Source: Allocatelliglobosispora scoriae (GTDB taxonomy: Bacteria > Actinomycetota > Actinomycetes > Mycobacteriales > Micromonosporaceae). Taken from it: DNA of 64,000 bases. The notes beneath the pieces are model-generated. The model had not been told where the DNA came from, searched no databases, and saw only the letters and a list, made by a program, of their open reading frames with translations. This document shows, one piece after another, positions 48,310 to 56,775 of the stretch; position 1 is the stretch's first letter, and every line of letters starts with the position of its first letter. The stretch is from positions 2,914,001 through 2,978,000 of the forward strand of contig NZ_JACHMN010000003.1 of assembly GCF_014204945.1 (NCBI RefSeq). The letters are read 5' to 3'. The translations under genes and the position numbers were made by a program.

Positions 48310-49329
48310 TCAGAAGATGTAGGGCCACCCGGCGGCGTCGTAGCCGATGCTGTTGATGCCCAGCAAGGACGCGCCGTTGTCGGCGTAGTAGTGGTAGAAG
48401 AGCTGGTCGCCATCGGTGTCGGCGATGACCGCCTGGTGGCCCGGGCCGTGGATGCCGCCGTGGGAGGCGAGGAGCTGCGTACCTCCGCCGGCGGCCATGT
48501 CGGTGCCGTTGCGGTCCAGGAAGGGGCCGGTCGGACTGGCCGAGCGGCCGACCATGATCCGGTAGGTGCTCGCGGCTCCGCGGCAGCACAGGTCGAACGA
48601 GACGTAGAGGTAGTACCACGTGCCGCGCCGGAACACGAAGGGCGCCTCGATGGCGCCGCCGCCACGGCCGGCGATCCCGCGTACGGTGCCGTCGAGGCGC
48701 CGACCGGTCGCGGGGTCCAGTTGGACGAGCTTGATCCCGGACCAGAACGATCCGAAGGTGAGCCACCACCGGCCCTGGCTGTCGGTGTAGAGGTTCGGGT
48801 CGATGGCGTTGAAATTGTCGGAGGTCCGCGATTCGATGACGAGGCCCTGGTGGGTCCAGGTGCCGGTGGCGCCGGTGGTGCTGGTGGCCAGGAATATGGC
48901 CGACCGGTTCGAGCCGAACGTCGAGGCGGAGTAGTACAGGTAGTAGCGCCCGTTGCGGTAGGAGATGTCGGGTGCCCACAGGTTGCGGCTGTTGTTCGTG
49001 TAGGTCAGCGTCCACGGTGCGCCGTTGGGGAAGACGGTCCCGGCATTGCGGAACGTGATCCGGTCGGTCGAGGTCTTCAGGGTGATGTTGTTCCCGGTGT
49101 GCGCCAGCAGGTAGCCGCCCTGCGGGCGGGTGACGACCGCCGGGTCGTGGACGCCGATGTCGCCGGTCACGTAGCCGGGGTCGGGGTAGTTCGGCGCCGC
49201 CGACGCGGCACACTGATCGACGGCGACTCCGCCGATGGCCGCCATGGCGGTGGTCACGCCCGCGGCGAGCCACGCCCGCCATCCGTGCCGTCGGGAGAGC
49301 CGGGAGGGTGCTTCGGTGGAGGTGAACAC
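48310..49329 (-). CDS. Secreted GH43 arabinanase (endo-1,5-alpha-L-arabinanase type)
   Basis: The 339-residue exported enzyme cleaves alpha-1,5-linked arabinan. The signal peptide ends near residue 46 (AASAAP). The five-bladed propeller carries the GH43 triad: Asp62 in GVHDPAVV, the pKa-modulating Asp in FNAIDPNLYTD and the acid Glu in GAIEAPFVF. GIHGPGHQAV is typical of arabinanases. The ATG at 49329 begins a long n-region. It follows the GH54 gene on the same strand past a 20-bp hairpin and belongs to the arabinan locus. Confidence 0.93.
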   Translation of the reverse strand: MFTSTEAPSRLSRRHGWRAWLAAGVTTAMAAIGGVAVDQCAASAAPNYPDPGYVTGDIGVHDPAVVTRPQGGYLLAHTGNNITLKTSTDRITFRNAGTVFPNGAPWTLTYTNNSRNLWAPDISYRNGRYYLYYSASTFGSNRSAIFLATSTTGATGTWTHQGLVIESRTSDNFNAIDPNLYTDSQGRWWLTFGSFWSGIKLVQLDPATGRRLDGTVRGIAGRGGGAIEAPFVFRRGTWYYLYVSFDLCCRGAASTYRIMVGRSASPTGPFLDRNGTDMAAGGGTQLLASHGGIHGPGHQAVIADTDGDQLFYHYYADNGASLLGINSIGYDAAGWPYIF

Positions 49330-49425: not shown

Positions 49426-50919
49426 CTACGGAGCGATCGACCAGAGCTGGCACGGGTTGTTGAGCCACATCCACAGGCGTGCGGGCGTACCGTTCGCCGT
49501 TCCGCAGTCCTGGTCGTCGAGGACCATGCCGCTGTTCTCGACGACGAGCTCGTATCGGCCGTTGCCGGCGGGAATGACCGCCCACTGCTGGCACAGGTTG
49601 CCGAGCGACTGCCACAGGTTGACGGCGGTGCCGAGGGCCTGCCCGCAGCCGACCGCGTCCAGCACCTTGTTGGCGTTGACGTTCGTCAGCGTCCACTTGT
49701 TGGCACCGACGCTGTTGAAGCGCCACTGCTGGCACGTGTTGCCCAGCGGCTGCCACTGGTCGATCTGCGTACCGTTGGCGGTGCCGCAGTTGACCGCGTC
49801 GAGCACCTTGCCGCTCTGGAGGTTGGTCAGGCGGTAGGTGGCACCGTTCACGGGGAAGCCGACGCTCTTGCTGTAGCCGACCGACACGATGTTGGCCTGC
49901 ACCGAATTCTCGGTGGCGTCGCTCGGGTAGCCGCTGGTCATGACGCCCTCGAAGAAAGAGCCTACGGAGCCGTTGCTGTTGTCGCCGCCGATGCCGAGGA
50001 TGATCGCGCCCTGCTTGGTCATCGGCCGGTAGCCGGCCTGGGTCGGCAGGCCGCCGTTGTAGCGGGTCGTGAGGCCCCCGGACTGCGCGTTGCCGTCCTT
50101 GATGGCGTAGGTGGTGGTGCCGTTGTTCTTCAGCACCGCGGTCACGAACGCCGAGGAGCGGCCGGTGTTCGCGGTCCAGGAGCCGTTGCCGCCCGCGAAG
50201 AGCCCGTTCTCGAGGTCGGCGGCGACCCGGGGGCCGCCCGCGCACGGCGAGAACCAGCACAGCGTGCCGAAGTAGATCGCGTCCATGTCGCCGTTGCCGG
50301 TGTCCATGTTGTTGGTCTCGGCGTTGCCGTAGTCGAAGCAGCACCGGTCGTTGGTGTGCGTGCCCTCGGTGACCATGTACATGCCCTCGGGCTGGCTGCC
50401 GGTCGCGATGCCGTTCGTCGCGTTGTTGCGGTAGCCGTTGCCCGCCGAGATGTAGACGCCGTAGACCTTGTGGCCACCCGCGGTGACGGGCAGTGCCGCC
50501 GCGTTCGAGCCCTGGTCGGCGGTGGGGTTGGCGCCGCCGCCGGGTGCGATGGTGAGATCGTTGTGACGCGAGGTCTGGTCATAGATGCGCACGATCGTGC
50601 AGTAGGTACCCGAGCAGAACGAGTCCTGCGCGGCCGCGTTCGCGTAGCCGCCCGCGCTGAGTACGCCGATGTTGGCGGTCGCGCCGTCGGACCAGCGCCG
50701 CACCTGGTAGAGCGCACCGTTGTAGGTGCCGAAGAGCGCGCGGGTGGTGCTGTGCGCGGCGACGCACGGCGTGCCGCCGTTGGCGTAGATGTCGCAGGAG
50801 AGCGTGCCCGCCGCCTGCGCGGGAGCGGACGCCGTCACCAGCACGGTCATGCCGAGCGCGGCGGCGGCGCCGAGAGCGAGGATGGATCGCCGCCATCGAG
50901 TTGAGGACCAGGGAGCCAT
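49426..50919 (-). CDS. Secreted GH54 alpha-L-arabinofuranosidase with ricin-B lectin domain
   Basis: The 497-residue enzyme removes arabinofuranose side groups. After a signal peptide (about 1-36, ending PAQAA), the GH54 domain runs from CDIYANGGTPCVAAHSTTRA to about residue 365. The likely nucleophile Glu is in CCFDYGNAETNN and the acid Asp in GIGGDNSNGS, by comparison with fungal AbfB. Residues about 370-497 form a ricin-type beta-trefoil with three QxW repeats (CQQWRF, CQQWAV, CQLWSI). Fungal GH54 enzymes commonly carry an AbfB (CBM42) domain; here that domain is on the neighbouring sigma factor. The ATG at 50919 is preceded by GGAAGGA. Two operators lie upstream. Confidence 0.93.
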   Translation of the reverse strand: MAPWSSTRWRRSILALGAAAALGMTVLVTASAPAQAAGTLSCDIYANGGTPCVAAHSTTRALFGTYNGALYQVRRWSDGATANIGVLSAGGYANAAAQDSFCSGTYCTIVRIYDQTSRHNDLTIAPGGGANPTADQGSNAAALPVTAGGHKVYGVYISAGNGYRNNATNGIATGSQPEGMYMVTEGTHTNDRCCFDYGNAETNNMDTGNGDMDAIYFGTLCWFSPCAGGPRVAADLENGLFAGGNGSWTANTGRSSAFVTAVLKNNGTTTYAIKDGNAQSGGLTTRYNGGLPTQAGYRPMTKQGAIILGIGGDNSNGSVGSFFEGVMTSGYPSDATENSVQANIVSVGYSKSVGFPVNGATYRLTNLQSGKVLDAVNCGTANGTQIDQWQPLGNTCQQWRFNSVGANKWTLTNVNANKVLDAVGCGQALGTAVNLWQSLGNLCQQWAVIPAGNGRYELVVENSGMVLDDQDCGTANGTPARLWMWLNNPCQLWSIAP

Positions 50920-50982
50920 AAGAGTCCTTCCATATGCATGCCACGCACGCGAAATGCGAAGTAAAACATCGATGACCACCGG

Positions 50983-50996
50983 TGTTAACGTTAACA
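50983..50996. promoter_or_regulatory. LacI-type operator TGTTAACGTTAACA (proximal)
   Basis: A perfect 14-bp palindrome with central CG, 65-78 bp before the GH54 start codon. It is the nearer of two such sites in the divergent region shared with the sigma-factor gene. Confidence 0.7.
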
Positions 50997-51018
50997 TTGC
51001 TCCGAAAGAGCCCGCGGT

Positions 51019-51032
51019 TGTTAACGTTAACG
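51019..51032. promoter_or_regulatory. LacI-type operator TGTTAACGTTAACG (distal)
   Basis: Thirteen of the 14 bases match the proximal site; the centres are 36 bp apart. Paired sites at this spacing suggest cooperative binding by a LacI-family protein encoded outside the window. They could control the GH54 gene, the sigma gene, or both. Confidence 0.65.
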
Positions 51033-51252
51033 GAGCCTTACATGGATGTTTCGATCCGTCAACAGACTCCCGCGGGCTGAGTGTTTATGGCATCACGCGA
51101 CGTCGGCCGCGCCGACGATCTCGACCCCGGAGGTCCGCAGGCTCGCAGCCGGGCGGGTGAGCCAGGGCCAGAACTTCTGCCGCGTCTTGACTGGACGCCG
51201 CAGGCTCCGTCAGAGTCAACCACCACGATCCATCTACGACAGCGAATTGCGG

Positions 51253-52800
51253 ATGCCACCCAACAGCTCCAACGACCCGGCGCTCGTCGTCGCGGCGCAG
51301 GCCGGTGATCAGCGGGCGCTCGACGACCTGATCGCCGCCTACCTGCCCTTCGTCTACACGATCGTGCGCAGGGCGATGATCGATCCTCCCGAGTGCGACG
51401 ACGTCGTGCAGGACAGCATGGTGCGAGCCCTGCGGGAGCTGCGGGAGCTGCGCACCCCGGAGAGCTTCCGGGCCTGGCTGGGCGCCATCACCGTTCGGCA
51501 GATCAGCACCCACCTGCACCGGCGGAGCGTCAACGCCCGGCGTACCGCCCCCTTGGACGACCTGGCCGGAATGCCGGACGCCGACGCGTCCTTCGAGGGT
51601 TTGACGATGCTGCGGCTGGACCTGGCCGACCAGCGCCACCAGGCGGTACGCGCCGCGCGCTGGTTGGACGGCGACGACCGGACGCTGCTGTCGCTGTGGT
51701 GGCTGGAGGTCGCGGGCAAGCTGTCGCGTACCGAACTCGCCACGGCGACCGGGGTGAGCGTCGCGCACGCCGGGGTGCGCGTCCAACGGATGCGCCAGCA
51801 GTTCGACCAGTGCCGTGCCCTGGTCGCCGCGGTGTCGGCGCAGCCGCGCTGCACCGATCTCGACGGGGTGCTGAAGGGCTGGGACGGTACGCCCAGCACC
51901 GCCTGGCGCAAGCGGATCACCCGGCATGTCGGTTCCTGCGGCACCTGCACGCCCACCGTCGACCGGCTGGTGAGTGCGGACCGGCTGCTCGTCGGGGCGG
52001 CCCTGCTCCCTGTCCCGGCCGCGCTCGCCGCCGCGCTGATCGGCAAGGGCGCGCTCGCCGGTGCCGCATCGTCGGCGGCGCTGACGGCCGGAGCGAAGGC
52101 GGGCCTGCTGGGGAATCTGACGAAGGCGGTCGCGTCCCACTCCGTCGTCACGGTGCTCGTCGCGGGCACCCTGGCTGCGGGCACGACGGCCGCCGTCCTG
52201 AACTGGCCCGCCAGCCCTCCGGCGCTCCCGGCGGTAGCGGCGCCGCTGCCTCCGGCTGACACCCCGGCGCTGCCGAGCCCGTCCGCCGCCCAACCGAGCC
52301 CCTCCGCCGCCCAGGCCAGCCGCCGGTCGAGCCCGAGCCCCTCCCGCAGCGCAGCCGGGCCGCTGACGGCTGGACCCGCCTCGCTGGAGTCAGCCGCGCA
52401 GCCCGGCCACTACGCCACCATCCAGAATGGTGTCGGCGTGCTGGCGGCCCTCTCGGCGACGAGCGCTGCCACAGCCCGCCAGCAGGCCACCTTCGACGTG
52501 GTGGCGGGCCTGGCCGACGCCGGCTGCTTCTCCTTCCGCGCAGCCGACGGACGGTACCTGCGCCACCAGAACTGGCGGACGAAGTCGAACTACAACGACG
52601 GCACCGAGCTCTTCCGGTCGGACGCGACGTTCTGCGTCCGACCGGGATCGACGAGCTCATCGCTGGTCTTCGAGTCCCAATACGCGGGGTGGTTCCTGCA
52701 CCGCCGGGGTGGCGAGCTGTGGGTCGACTACACCGACGGCAGCGCCGCGTTCCTCGCGGACAGCTCCTTTCGGATCCGGCCGCCGCTTGCGGATCGGTGA
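51253..52800 (+). CDS. ECF sigma factor fused to anti-sigma zinc motif, membrane segment and AbfB arabinose-binding domain
   Basis: The 515-residue protein has, in order, a sigma-70 region 2 (about 21-90, YLPFVYTIVRRAMIDPPECDD then DVVQDSMVRAL), region 4 helix-turn-helix (about 135-188, LSRTELATATGVSVAHAGV), a zinc-binding anti-sigma motif H225-x3-C229-x2-C232 (RHVGSCGTC), hydrophobic segments (about 244-288 and 296-318), a Pro/Ser/Ala linker (319-385) and an AbfB/CBM42 beta-trefoil (about 386-512). The trefoil repeats are YLRHQNWRTKSNYNDGTELF and FLHRRGGELWVDYTDGSAAF. The ATG at 51253 begins the coding-like sequence. It is divergent from the arabinofuranosidase gene. The simplest reading is a membrane-tethered sigma factor that senses external arabinan and activates arabinan genes. 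Confidence 0.88.
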   Translation: MPPNSSNDPALVVAAQAGDQRALDDLIAAYLPFVYTIVRRAMIDPPECDDVVQDSMVRALRELRELRTPESFRAWLGAITVRQISTHLHRRSVNARRTAPLDDLAGMPDADASFEGLTMLRLDLADQRHQAVRAARWLDGDDRTLLSLWWLEVAGKLSRTELATATGVSVAHAGVRVQRMRQQFDQCRALVAAVSAQPRCTDLDGVLKGWDGTPSTAWRKRITRHVGSCGTCTPTVDRLVSADRLLVGAALLPVPAALAAALIGKGALAGAASSAALTAGAKAGLLGNLTKAVASHSVVTVLVAGTLAAGTTAAVLNWPASPPALPAVAAPLPPADTPALPSPSAAQPSPSAAQASRRSSPSPSRSAAGPLTAGPASLESAAQPGHYATIQNGVGVLAALSATSAATARQQATFDVVAGLADAGCFSFRAADGRYLRHQNWRTKSNYNDGTELFRSDATFCVRPGSTSSSLVFESQYAGWFLHRRGGELWVDYTDGSAAFLADSSFRIRPPLADR

Positions 52801-54840: not shown

Positions 54841-56775
54841 ATGGCCGTCCTGATGATGATCGCCGCGTGTTACGGCGTATGGCAATTGGCGATCCTGAGC
54901 TCCTGGACCCGGACCGTGCGCTTCGGCGTGCTCCTGCTGGCGGTCACCGTCGGTCTCTACGGTGCCGGTGTCCTGTCGGTGTTCGCGCAGCTCCTCTACA
55001 CCCGGGGTGTGGTGGCGCTGACCGACACGCCGCTGCCCGAGGTGGTCCGCACCGCTTCGTACACAATGGATCCCTTCATCGAGGAGCTGGCGAAGATCGC
55101 GCCGCTGGCGCTGCTGGTGCTGCTGCACAAGCGGATCCGCGCGCAGTGGGGCCTGACCGACTACGTGCTCGTCGCCGCGGCGATCGGTTCCGGCTTCACT
55201 CTCGCCGAGGCGCTGCTGCGATTCAGCAACGAGGCCGCGCGGATGCCCGACGCGCAGGGCGGCATCGTGTCCGGGTGGACGGAGATGTCGGGCTTCTCGC
55301 TGACCTACTTCCCCGGCCTGAGCAGCATCCTCACCTCGTGGCTCCCGGCGCCCGTCGTCAACGGCGACCTGTTCGCCGGGGCATCCGACAGCGCGACCAA
55401 CCCGCACCTGGTGCTCAGTGCGCTGGCCGGGCTCGGCCTGGGGCTGCTGCTGCGCAAGGGCTGGAAGCTGCGCCTGGCCGGGGCGGCGCTCATCTTCTAC
55501 GCCTGGCTGGACCACGCCAGCTTCAACCAGCGCATCGCGGCACCCGACGACGGCGGGGTGATCGGTCTGGTGGCCGGTCCCATGAAGGTGATCGGCACCG
55601 TGGGCTGGCTCTACCCGCTGCTGGCCCTCGCAGCGGCGTCCTATCTGGACTTCGTGGCCGCCCGGACGTCGAAGCGTGCCTTGCCCGACGTGCAGACCCA
55701 GGTGTCCCTGCTCGACTTCGCGACGAAGGGCCTGCCCTGGACGCCGCTGATCGCGTGGCGGTTCGTCCTGGCCCGCCGCAACCTGTACTTCGCCCACGCG
55801 TCCGGTCGGGACACCGCCGACCTGCACCGGGTGGTGCGGGAGATCCGTGACCGGATCGACGCGTCCAACACCGCCGCGGCCTGGAGCAACGTCAAGCCGC
55901 CGCTGCCGAACCCGTTCGCGTCGGGCAGCGGCATCCGCCGCTACCTGCCGCTGCTGGTCCCGCTGGTGCTGCTGGTGCCCGCCTTCCTCTACTTCGTCGT
56001 CGGCACGATCCCGCTCACCGCCGGTGTGCAGAAGCTCATGATGTCGGCGTTCGCCACCCCGGTGATCCTCCTGTTCAGCCTCGTCGGCCTCGCCTGGCTC
56101 GGCTGGCGGCTCATCGGCATGCTCCGCCAGCGGCGGCAGCTCGCGGCGGCACCCTCCGCCGAGCTGATAGCCAAGGGCGAGCTGCAGCTCATCACCGCCT
56201 TCGGCGCGCTCGCGACCGGGGTGACCTCCCTCATCATCGGTCTGACCGGCAGCGGTCTGGACCAGCCGCTGGTGTCCAACATCCACATCCTCGACGCGCT
56301 GGGCAGGGGTGTCGCGCTCAGCGGCCTCCTGCTGATGCTCATCGCCCTGGCCCTCGTCCTCTTCCCGCCGGGCGGGCTGGCCCTGGCCGGCGGCGGCATG
56401 ATGGCCGGTGCGCTGTCCCCGGCCGCCCTCGCCGGATTGGGAGCCGCGCTCGGTGCGCTCGGTGCTCTGCTCATGCACGCCTCCAGCGGTGGCGGCAGCG
56501 GGGGCCGGGGCGACGACTACTGGGAGGACAAGTACGGCGACGAGGCCAACAAGTACGAGGACGCGCCGCGCAACGAGCGGATGAGCGACGCGAACAAGCA
56601 GGAGCTGCAGGAATCGGGCTGGCTGAAGGAGAAGGTGCCCGACACCGGCACCCGGCGCGAGTTCATGAAGTGGCTGGAGCAGGGTCACAAGCAGGGCGAG
56701 GCCCACGTCCACCTGCGGCCGGGCTCACCCGAGGCGGAGGCGGCTCTGCAGGAGTTCCTCGCCGAGACGCTCTGA
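54841..56775 (+). CDS. PrsW-like intramembrane protease fused to a soluble C-terminal domain
   Basis: The 644-residue protein starts with a multi-helix membrane domain with PrsW/CPBP features: the Glu pair E81-E82 in DPFIEELAKIAPL, E123 in GSGFTLAEALL, His189 in TNPHLVLSAL and the H225xxxN229 of AWLDHASFNQ. These are the presumed metal or catalytic residues of PrsW, which cleaves anti-sigma factors in other bacteria. Further helices lie at about 355-510. A soluble tail of about 100 residues (DDYWEDKYGDEANKYEDAPRN to GQAHVH-like EAHVHLRPGSPEAE) follows a Gly/Ser linker. The tail resembles small C-terminal domains of polymorphic secreted proteins, but that is a weak resemblance. Start is ATG 54841. 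Confidence 0.72.
   Translation: MAVLMMIAACYGVWQLAILSSWTRTVRFGVLLLAVTVGLYGAGVLSVFAQLLYTRGVVALTDTPLPEVVRTASYTMDPFIEELAKIAPLALLVLLHKRIRAQWGLTDYVLVAAAIGSGFTLAEALLRFSNEAARMPDAQGGIVSGWTEMSGFSLTYFPGLSSILTSWLPAPVVNGDLFAGASDSATNPHLVLSALAGLGLGLLLRKGWKLRLAGAALIFYAWLDHASFNQRIAAPDDGGVIGLVAGPMKVIGTVGWLYPLLALAAASYLDFVAARTSKRALPDVQTQVSLLDFATKGLPWTPLIAWRFVLARRNLYFAHASGRDTADLHRVVREIRDRIDASNTAAAWSNVKPPLPNPFASGSGIRRYLPLLVPLVLLVPAFLYFVVGTIPLTAGVQKLMMSAFATPVILLFSLVGLAWLGWRLIGMLRQRRQLAAAPSAELIAKGELQLITAFGALATGVTSLIIGLTGSGLDQPLVSNIHILDALGRGVALSGLLLMLIALALVLFPPGGLALAGGGMMAGALSPAALAGLGAALGALGALLMHASSGGGSGGRGDDYWEDKYGDEANKYEDAPRNERMSDANKQELQESGWLKEKVPDTGTRREFMKWLEQGHKQGEAHVHLRPGSPEAEAALQEFLAETL

Follow-up and report, generated by a model that had tools for sequence, protein, structure and literature searches.

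Which signal would reach a sigma factor whose putative inhibitor and candidate sugar sensor lie in the same polypeptide, and which genes would answer to it? The question is raised by a gene of Allocatelliglobosispora scoriae (Micromonosporaceae; assembly GCF_014204945.1, contig NZ_JACHMN010000003.1) within a stretch of 64,000 nucleotides (positions 2,914,001 to 2,978,000), referred to here as the window, whose coordinates are used throughout. An original prediction, made from the letters alone, described the gene product as a sigma factor, anti-sigma factor and arabinan sensor in one protein, next to arabinan-degrading enzymes. The analysis confirmed that one chain holds a sigma factor of the extracytoplasmic function (ECF) type, a zinc anti-sigma (ZAS) motif, hydrophobic segments, a linker and an AbfB domain. 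We put at roughly 0.6 the probability that this is a single-chain, membrane-tethered ECF sigma switch that answers arabinofuranosyl polysaccharide by proteolytic release and acts via the promoter-like motif described below, the cleavage step being proposed by analogy.

Domain architecture of the protein

The gene runs on the forward strand from an ATG at 51253 to a stop codon ending at 52800 and encodes 515 amino acids (aa). A longer open reading frame (ORF) from an in-frame ATG at 51046 was rejected because homologue matches begin at the position of 51253. Sigma region 2 (residues 26-91, 51328 to 51525) matches Pfam Sigma70_r2 at 48.9 bits (cut-off 24), and NCBIfam TIGR02937 (sigma70-ECF) covers residues 22-183 at 51.1 bits (cut-off 42.9), region 4 included. 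The helix-turn-helix (HTH) of region 4 (residues about 138-187, 51664 to 51813) is likewise formed by helices in the structure model, and in Pfam it appears as a sub-threshold HTH match (E 0.015). Both sigma regions of the original prediction therefore hold.

Relatives were sought by scanning one genome per species in 84,980 species, and the best 80 of 304 confirmed places were retained, so that the counts given here describe the nearest relatives. Thirty seven of the 80 carry AbfB in frame; together with the window protein and a paralogue from the same genome they form the 39 rows of alignment A2, all of which match both AbfB and Sigma70_r2. Alignment A3 has 44 rows, made up of 43 other loci and the window row. 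The predicted H225-x3-C229-x2-C232 motif is present and is preceded by a further cysteine, giving C200-x24-H225-x3-C229-x2-C232 (51850 to 51948). This agrees by its letters with the ZAS consensus, H/C-x24-25-H-x3-C-x2-C, and the four residues are unchanged in all 39 rows of A2 and all 44 of A3. The profile scans thus bear out Sigma70_r2 and AbfB above their cut-offs, but region 4 stays below threshold in Pfam and no zinc-finger or ZAS Pfam model matched the full protein at E<=1; residues 200-246 gave no match to PDB sequences at E<=5.

Downstream of the motif, the anticipated hydrophobic stretch resolves into two Kyte-Doolittle (KD) peaks, at residues 245-263 (51985 to 52041, KD 2.35) and 299-317 (52147 to 52203, KD 1.58), the latter overlapped by a weaker peak at 285-303. 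The second is the likely transmembrane (TM) helix, and a helix at 297-315 is present at low confidence in the full-length model. The first has low predicted local distance difference test (pLDDT) values in that model and may be amphipathic or a second TM segment. A linker follows (residues 319-372, 52207 to 52368) that is rich in alanine as well as in the proline and serine foreseen (15 Pro, 14 Ala and 11 Ser in 54 residues). The C-terminal AbfB/CBM42 beta-trefoil, the sensor candidate, spans residues 377-508 (52381 to 52776) and matches Pfam AbfB at 120.5 bits (cut-off 22.8).

The AbfB domain and its putative sugar pocket

The AbfB part was modelled with AlphaFold2 at pLDDT values of 94-98 in blocks, falling to 85 at the extreme end. 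Among the structure matches listed, to which all structural comparisons here refer, the predicted trefoil is borne out by a Z score of 25.2 to a fungal GH54 enzyme (1wd3) and of 23.1 to the CBM42 of the Clostridium thermocellum anti-sigma factor RsgI5 (9fnk; root mean square deviation (rmsd) 1.2 A over 129 residues). The CBM42 domains of GH54 and GH43 arabinofuranosidases (1wd3, 3akf, 9nxg) share the fold and the beta-pocket His and Asp; there, however, the domain belongs to an enzyme, whereas the window protein couples it to a sigma factor. The available text on AtAbf43C describes arabinose held in the beta pocket of its CBM42 through Y73, H70 and D89, and weaker binding of arabinoxylan and arabinose in the D91A and D136A variants (PMC12493170). 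H438 and D457 of the window protein occupy the positions of H70 and D89 with identical spacing, and both are present in 39/39 members of A2. This supports a beta pocket that would fit arabinofuranose, as judged from its residues. Speaking against such a sensor, the gamma-pocket His, found in 23/39 of A2, is replaced by Arg in the window protein.

Distribution of the fusion and variation of C-termini

The survey of homologues that the original prediction had proposed found the same sigma-ZAS-AbfB fusion in 39 further genes besides the window gene, one of them frame-broken. In this last gene (L072:9986-11448) the AbfB part lies in a different frame from sigma-ZAS, reflecting a broken gene or a sequencing error. 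The window protein is 62% identical to Catellatospora proteins over residues 1-513 and 1-510. In a quick tree of 72 sigma-ZAS parts, it groups with Catellatospora and Rhizocola (support 100), and the paralogue with two Streptomyces proteins (support 97). AbfB-bearing proteins do not form one clade: six changes are required, at least three of them forced by supported branches. AbfB is thus scattered on the tree, which implies exchange of the sensor or else repeated losses.

The C-termini in A3 include CAP (5), Lcl_C (3), a glycosyl hydrolase core (1) and a beta-helix (1). Loci of Streptomyces, Saccharothrix and Nonomuraea (L047, L050, L053 and others) share an unnamed domain on the sigma-ZAS frame, in which the words WTGLKGKLFHVASGGG and QQMWQNE recur; in the one member viewed (L057), this domain gave no Pfam match at E<=0.01. 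Three relatives run into a contig end (L038, L049, L052). Six others (L040, L041, L042, L043, L045, L061) terminate shortly past ZAS, and their loci yielded no AbfB; five of these lack a hydrophobic peak after ZAS and L042 has one. An enolase-superfamily gene (27-28% identity to that of the window) flanks four of the six on the side opposite the enzyme side, and these four are not the same set as the four flanked by GH10.

Further sequences of this kind were observed in the genome of A. scoriae itself. A third one-chain sigma-ZAS protein, its motif recognised by eye, has a C-terminal Pel9A-like beta-helix (L108:1489-3654), and a further sigma factor (L109:1450-3015) combines an H-x3-C-x2-C motif with a long tail rich in proline. 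Elsewhere (L001/L004, G000 C1:591476-592312), two AbfB repeats lie by a stretch with an HE-x2-H-like metallopeptidase motif, again seen by eye.

Genes neighbouring the relatives

Neighbouring genes were taken from a simple GC-frame caller rather than from annotation, and enzymes were labelled locus by locus by BLAST with seven seed sequences, drawn only from the window and AbfB loci; the GDSL esterase and GH27 seeds count as enzymes in the motif analysis below and were left out of the following counts. A glycoside hydrolase (GH) of family 10, 62, 43 or 54 lies within two genes at 27/40 AbfB loci, directly adjoining at 25, in contrast to 0/33 full-length loci with other sensors. Such enzymes were also found at 4/6 sensor-less sigma-ZAS loci (GH10) and at 1/3 contig-end loci. 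Where the original prediction expected arabinan-linked genes beside homologues, enzymes that degrade arabinose-containing polysaccharides are found.

Families were also counted with Pfam among 132 neighbours of at least 100 aa within two genes of 39 AbfB loci (sets A4, 62 genes, and A5, 70 genes; L072 was left out). GH62 (7 in A4 and 7 in A5), GH10 (8 and 6) and GH43 (7 and 6) were found, and GH54 appeared twice in A5 and not at all among the A4 families shown (25 of 119). Arabinoxylan enzymes, namely GH62, GH10 and GH43 with a beta-xylosidase C-domain, dominate the neighbours of the relatives. For this reason 'arabinan' is too narrow a term, and an arabinan-only reading was dropped. From the remaining loci, 157 neighbours were listed and 69 made up a corresponding set (A6), most of them directly adjoining the 33 full-length genes with other sensors and two coming from L072. 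The 25 families shown for A6, out of 73, include no GH10, GH62, GH43 or GH54. Those shown include two AbfB, two PL4-type and two alginate-lyase matches, so other-sensor loci can also adjoin polysaccharide genes.

Two of the results on neighbours tell against the proposed switch. Thirteen of the 40 AbfB loci have no such enzyme within two genes, though some are short (several stop near a contig end, and at the paralogue locus, L002, one neighbour was examined). Moreover, a phylogeny-aware pair test of sensor against enzyme neighbours found one supported independent pair, with which significance is unreachable. AbfB loci are mostly from Micromonosporaceae and other-sensor loci mostly from Streptomyces; because the lineages are split by sensor and one pair is supported, the contrast in neighbours, large as the counts are, is not phylogenetically proven. 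The enzyme-free loci would suit a protein that answers a different signal, with an AbfB domain that has drifted or serves chiefly to attach the cell or the protein to polysaccharide of plants. So would the altered gamma pocket of the window protein and the six relatives that keep sigma-ZAS without a sensor, four of them adjoining GH10. However, the beta-pocket His and Asp are invariant and enzyme neighbours vary with sensor type, and we consider an anchoring or drifted domain very unlikely.

A promoter-like motif upstream of enzyme and sigma genes

A search for split words found GTTAT-N18-GTCG upstream of 14/59 enzyme genes and 8/40 sigma genes; shuffled sequences gave 0.0 and 0.1. It also listed GC-rich words, for example GCCGG-N15-CGGC (12/59 against 1.0), which are read as base composition. 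Eighteen sites upstream of AbfB sigma genes, lying on either strand, were combined into a matrix with the consensus GAAAAnyGTTATG-N17-GTCGC. At a score of 17, the AbfB loci (727 kb) yield 45 sites, of which 18 served for training, the other loci (803 kb) yield 21, none used for training, and reversed sequences yield 0. With training sites removed, a sense-strand site precedes 20/57 enzyme neighbours of AbfB loci (13 loci) compared with 3/402 other neighbours (Fisher p about 4e-17, for genes that are not independent); with training sites included, the counts are 21/57 and 5/402. With training again removed, the counts are 2/5 enzyme neighbours against 0/73 others at sensor-less loci and 1/3 against 1/454 at the remaining loci.

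Sites also precede 17/36 non-AbfB sigma genes outside training (15/33 full-length; 0/36 in reversed sequence) and none of the six sensor-less sigma genes. The spacing of the two words fits the -35/-10 geometry of ECF promoters. From this geometry and the position before sigma genes, we infer that the motif is a promoter of the sigma-ZAS factors.

There are several points on the other side. The link between the motif and these factors is one of association. Streptomyces accounts for 16 of the 17 site-bearing sigma genes with other sensors; these are near relatives and thus represent few independent events. Among 36 AbfB sigma genes examined, only eight have a site, all of them training sites. 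Divergent pairs of sites are frequent, 56-83 bp apart and most often 76-77 bp, which could suit a dimeric regulator, and such pairs (L005, L006, L009, L015, L094, L095 and others) occur even where no called gene is close on one side. The architecture of the protein could therefore be as described, with the motif being the operator of another regulator, for example a dimeric activator of hemicellulase and sigma genes. The pairs would be natural for such an operator, including those with a called gene on one side only; but the word spacing suits the -35/-10 arrangement of ECF promoters, and other-sensor sigma genes of Streptomyces keep the upstream word with CGTCTCC as the downstream word and no hemicellulase seed nearby. 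We regard this alternative as unlikely.

Predicted cytoplasmic clamp and probable membrane topology

Residues 1-246 were modelled alone from a 72-row alignment (pLDDT 84.5, predicted TM-score (pTM) 0.75). The best match is SigW of the SigW-RsiW complex (Z 15.4, rmsd 2.7 A, 157 residues), and CnrH-CnrY (2.9 A over 154 residues) and RpoE-NepR (3.3 A over 155) also match over two domains. Alignment to ECF sigma factors bound to RNA polymerase over both domains gives 27.5-28.4 A. The model suggests that the sigma part is predicted in an anti-sigma-bound arrangement. In disagreement with this, SigE-RseA (1or7), AlgU-MucA (6in7), SigK (4nqw) and SigE-ChrR (2z2s) align over only 82-100 residues, and the ZAS prototype, SigE-ChrR, is among these one-domain matches.

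The C-terminus is likely to lie outside the cell, with the TM helix assigned by hydropathy only. If the chain instead crossed the membrane twice, AbfB would lie inside and sense an intracellular ligand or none. One or two TM helices are given for these ECF groups in the available text of PMC8999054, and most A2 members have two hydrophobic segments. The positive-inside signal, moreover, is weak and detracts from an outward orientation: the loop is richer in Lys/Arg in 15/39 members of A2, equal in 17 and poorer in seven. Set against two passes are the cysteine pair C425/C461, invariant in A2, and the Pro/Ala/Ser linker, which suit an outside location, and the alternative C-termini (CAP, glycosyl hydrolase core, beta-helix), which we take to be domains usual in secreted proteins. 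An inward-facing sensor seems to us highly improbable.

Possible regulation at the window locus and elsewhere in the genome

The gene is divergent from a GH54 alpha-L-arabinofuranosidase with a RicinB lectin domain (49426 to 50997, reverse strand; Pfam ArabFuran-catal 496.9 bits). Next to this, also on the reverse strand, is an endo-arabinanase-like GH43 (48310 to 49329; Glyco_hydro_43 166.1 bits; NF053747 AbnA 281.6 bits, under its cut-off of 480). The enzymes named in the original prediction therefore do adjoin the gene, although the neighbours of relatives point more to arabinoxylan than to arabinan. The claim that the protein controls these two genes is not supported by the motif: as a further point against the proposed switch, a matrix search of the window found no good copy at the sigma gene or at GH54. 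The highest scores in the window lie elsewhere (15.3, or 16.3 if the spacer is shortened by one); near GH54 the top site, scoring 14.1 and likewise with a spacer shorter by one, falls inside the GH54 coding start. Allowing spacings of 17-19 and mismatches at the window gene yielded only two-mismatch or low-score sites, which were dropped. Compared with seven aligned relatives, the window upstream region is without their common -35-like word. A TTGACT-N18-CAGAGT sequence (51187 to 51216, forward strand) may be a basal vegetative promoter; TTGAC and AGTC are kept in 8/8 aligned upstream regions, but the full CAGAGT word is not.

The palindrome GTTAACGTTAAC occurs in two perfect copies in the window against 0.01 expected. 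They lie 36 bp apart near the GH54 start, one within the called GH54 ORF, towards its 5' end (50984 to 50995), and the other between GH54 and the sigma gene (51020 to 51031). The pair is operator-like and resembles what we take to be a LacI-type operator. Taken with the missing motif, it would fit a window copy that is a rewired or decaying duplicate, its neighbours being under another repressor, perhaps of LacI type. Yet the frame is intact, the key residues are kept and identity to the Catellatospora proteins is 62%, and such a fate for the gene appears quite unlikely.

Across the whole genome, GTTAT-N18-GTCGC has eight sites compared with one in the control. A GH62 gene (C1:842347/842431) and a GH43-GH62 cluster (C1:1292612/1292695) each have a divergent pair, in which the minus-strand site faces the enzyme gene. 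Another site (C1:161158, score 34.8) faces no nearby called start: the paralogue, about 5.7 kb further along, is the next called gene on that strand. Two more sites are on contig C2. The strict sites at L096, where a GH127 ORF with RicinB (an arabinose enzyme) begins, and at L097 score 12.2 and 14.6 and were taken as chance. The paralogue adjoins GH10, with another GH54 near. Since the window sigma gene and GH54 are without a good site, while pairs stand at the GH62 and GH43-GH62 loci of C1, it is likely that these loci, shared with or belonging to the paralogue, are the direct targets rather than the adjacent GH54 and GH43.

A gene for a PrsW-family protease close to the sigma gene (54841 to 56775) was considered as a dedicated site-1 protease and dropped, as it has no relative at the other loci: its first 400 residues matched only itself among called neighbours (up to eight per side, BLAST E<=1e-10).

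Relation to known systems

Actinobacterial sigma factors of groups ECF48, ECF52 and ECF53, fused to ZAS, TM and an extension and with proteolytic release proposed, are described in the available text of PMC8999054, PMC5826349 and PMC10766802. Going by the group descriptions there, ECF52 and ECF53 (and ECF48), for example SCO4117, resemble the window protein: one chain holds the ECF sigma, a ZAS-type zinc finger, one or two TM helices, a Pro-rich stretch and a carbohydrate-binding or glycosidase-like extension. The window protein has the corresponding parts (sigma, ZAS, TM by hydropathy only, and a long extension) and actinobacterial relatives, and is likened to these groups by their published descriptions. 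It differs in that AbfB/CBM42 replaces the modules named in the accessible passages. These also link SCO4117 to differentiation and antibiotics, with a putative motif CSGYN-17-SRHA, whereas the window family is linked to hemicellulases and GTTAT-N18-GTCG. IutY of Pseudomonas putida (ECF243), likewise a sigma factor fused to a membrane anti-sigma factor in one chain and activated by proteolysis, answers a different signal, the siderophore aerobactin, according to the same partial text (PMC8999054).

RsgI5, in the available text, is an anti-sigma factor with CBM42 (PMC4711584; PDB 9fnk), and RsgI proteolysis involves RseP and ClpXP steps (PMC12203970). It shares with the window protein a TM anti-sigma plan with a closely agreeing trefoil, but is a separate protein with sigma-I as partner and an RsgI N-domain instead of ZAS. 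The window protein itself is not of the RsgI kind: at E<=1, the only Pfam models matched by the full protein are those for sigma region 2 and AbfB, plus two for HTH below threshold. The original prediction that no example had been described stands in so far as the combination of a one-chain ECF sigma with AbfB was not found in the literature, though it may be mentioned in ECF classification papers; among the matches listed for CBM42 with an anti-sigma or ECF factor, the CBM42 ones concern C. thermocellum by title. It has to yield in so far as ECF48/52/53 fusions and the CBM42 sensor of RsgI5 are published. What is new here is an AbfB sensor on the known sigma-ZAS-TM plan, in a conserved family with an invariant beta pocket, a contrast in enzyme neighbours and a promoter-like motif.

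Proposed mechanism and implications

We propose that, inside the cell, the ZAS segment would clamp the sigma regions intramolecularly, judging by the motif and the model, while the TM helix and flexible linker would place the AbfB/CBM42 trefoil outside. The pocket residues and neighbouring genes point to alpha-L-arabinofuranosyl side chains of arabinoxylan or arabinan as what the pocket may bind. By analogy with the known systems, binding would lead to cleavage of the chain in or near the membrane and removal of the inhibitory part. The freed sigma factor would then start transcription at GAAAAnyGTTAT-N18-GTCG promoters before GH62, GH10 and GH43 genes, presuming that the motif is its own, and in part of the relatives it may also transcribe its own gene from the motif.

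A broader proposal, to which we give rather less than even odds, concerns the family. A sigma-ZAS-TM chassis widespread in actinobacteria would swap the sensor at its outer end (an AbfB, CAP, Lcl_C, beta-helix or glycosidase-core domain, or the unnamed WTGLKGKLFHVASGGG domain) and keep its -35-like promoter word. Each sensor would thereby rewire an existing regulon, for polysaccharide or envelope. In its AbfB form, the chassis would read the arabinofuranosyl side chains of arabinoxylan and fire paired divergent promoters.

The architecture raises the question of how a protease removes an inhibitor covalently joined to the sigma factor it guards without destroying that factor. Sensor type, enzyme neighbours and motif together indicate a single class of ligand that can be tested and a small number of targets. 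Taken together, the relatives suggest, from their sequences and gene neighbourhoods, that these proteins may have a role in turning on enzymes that digest arabinose-decorated plant fibre.

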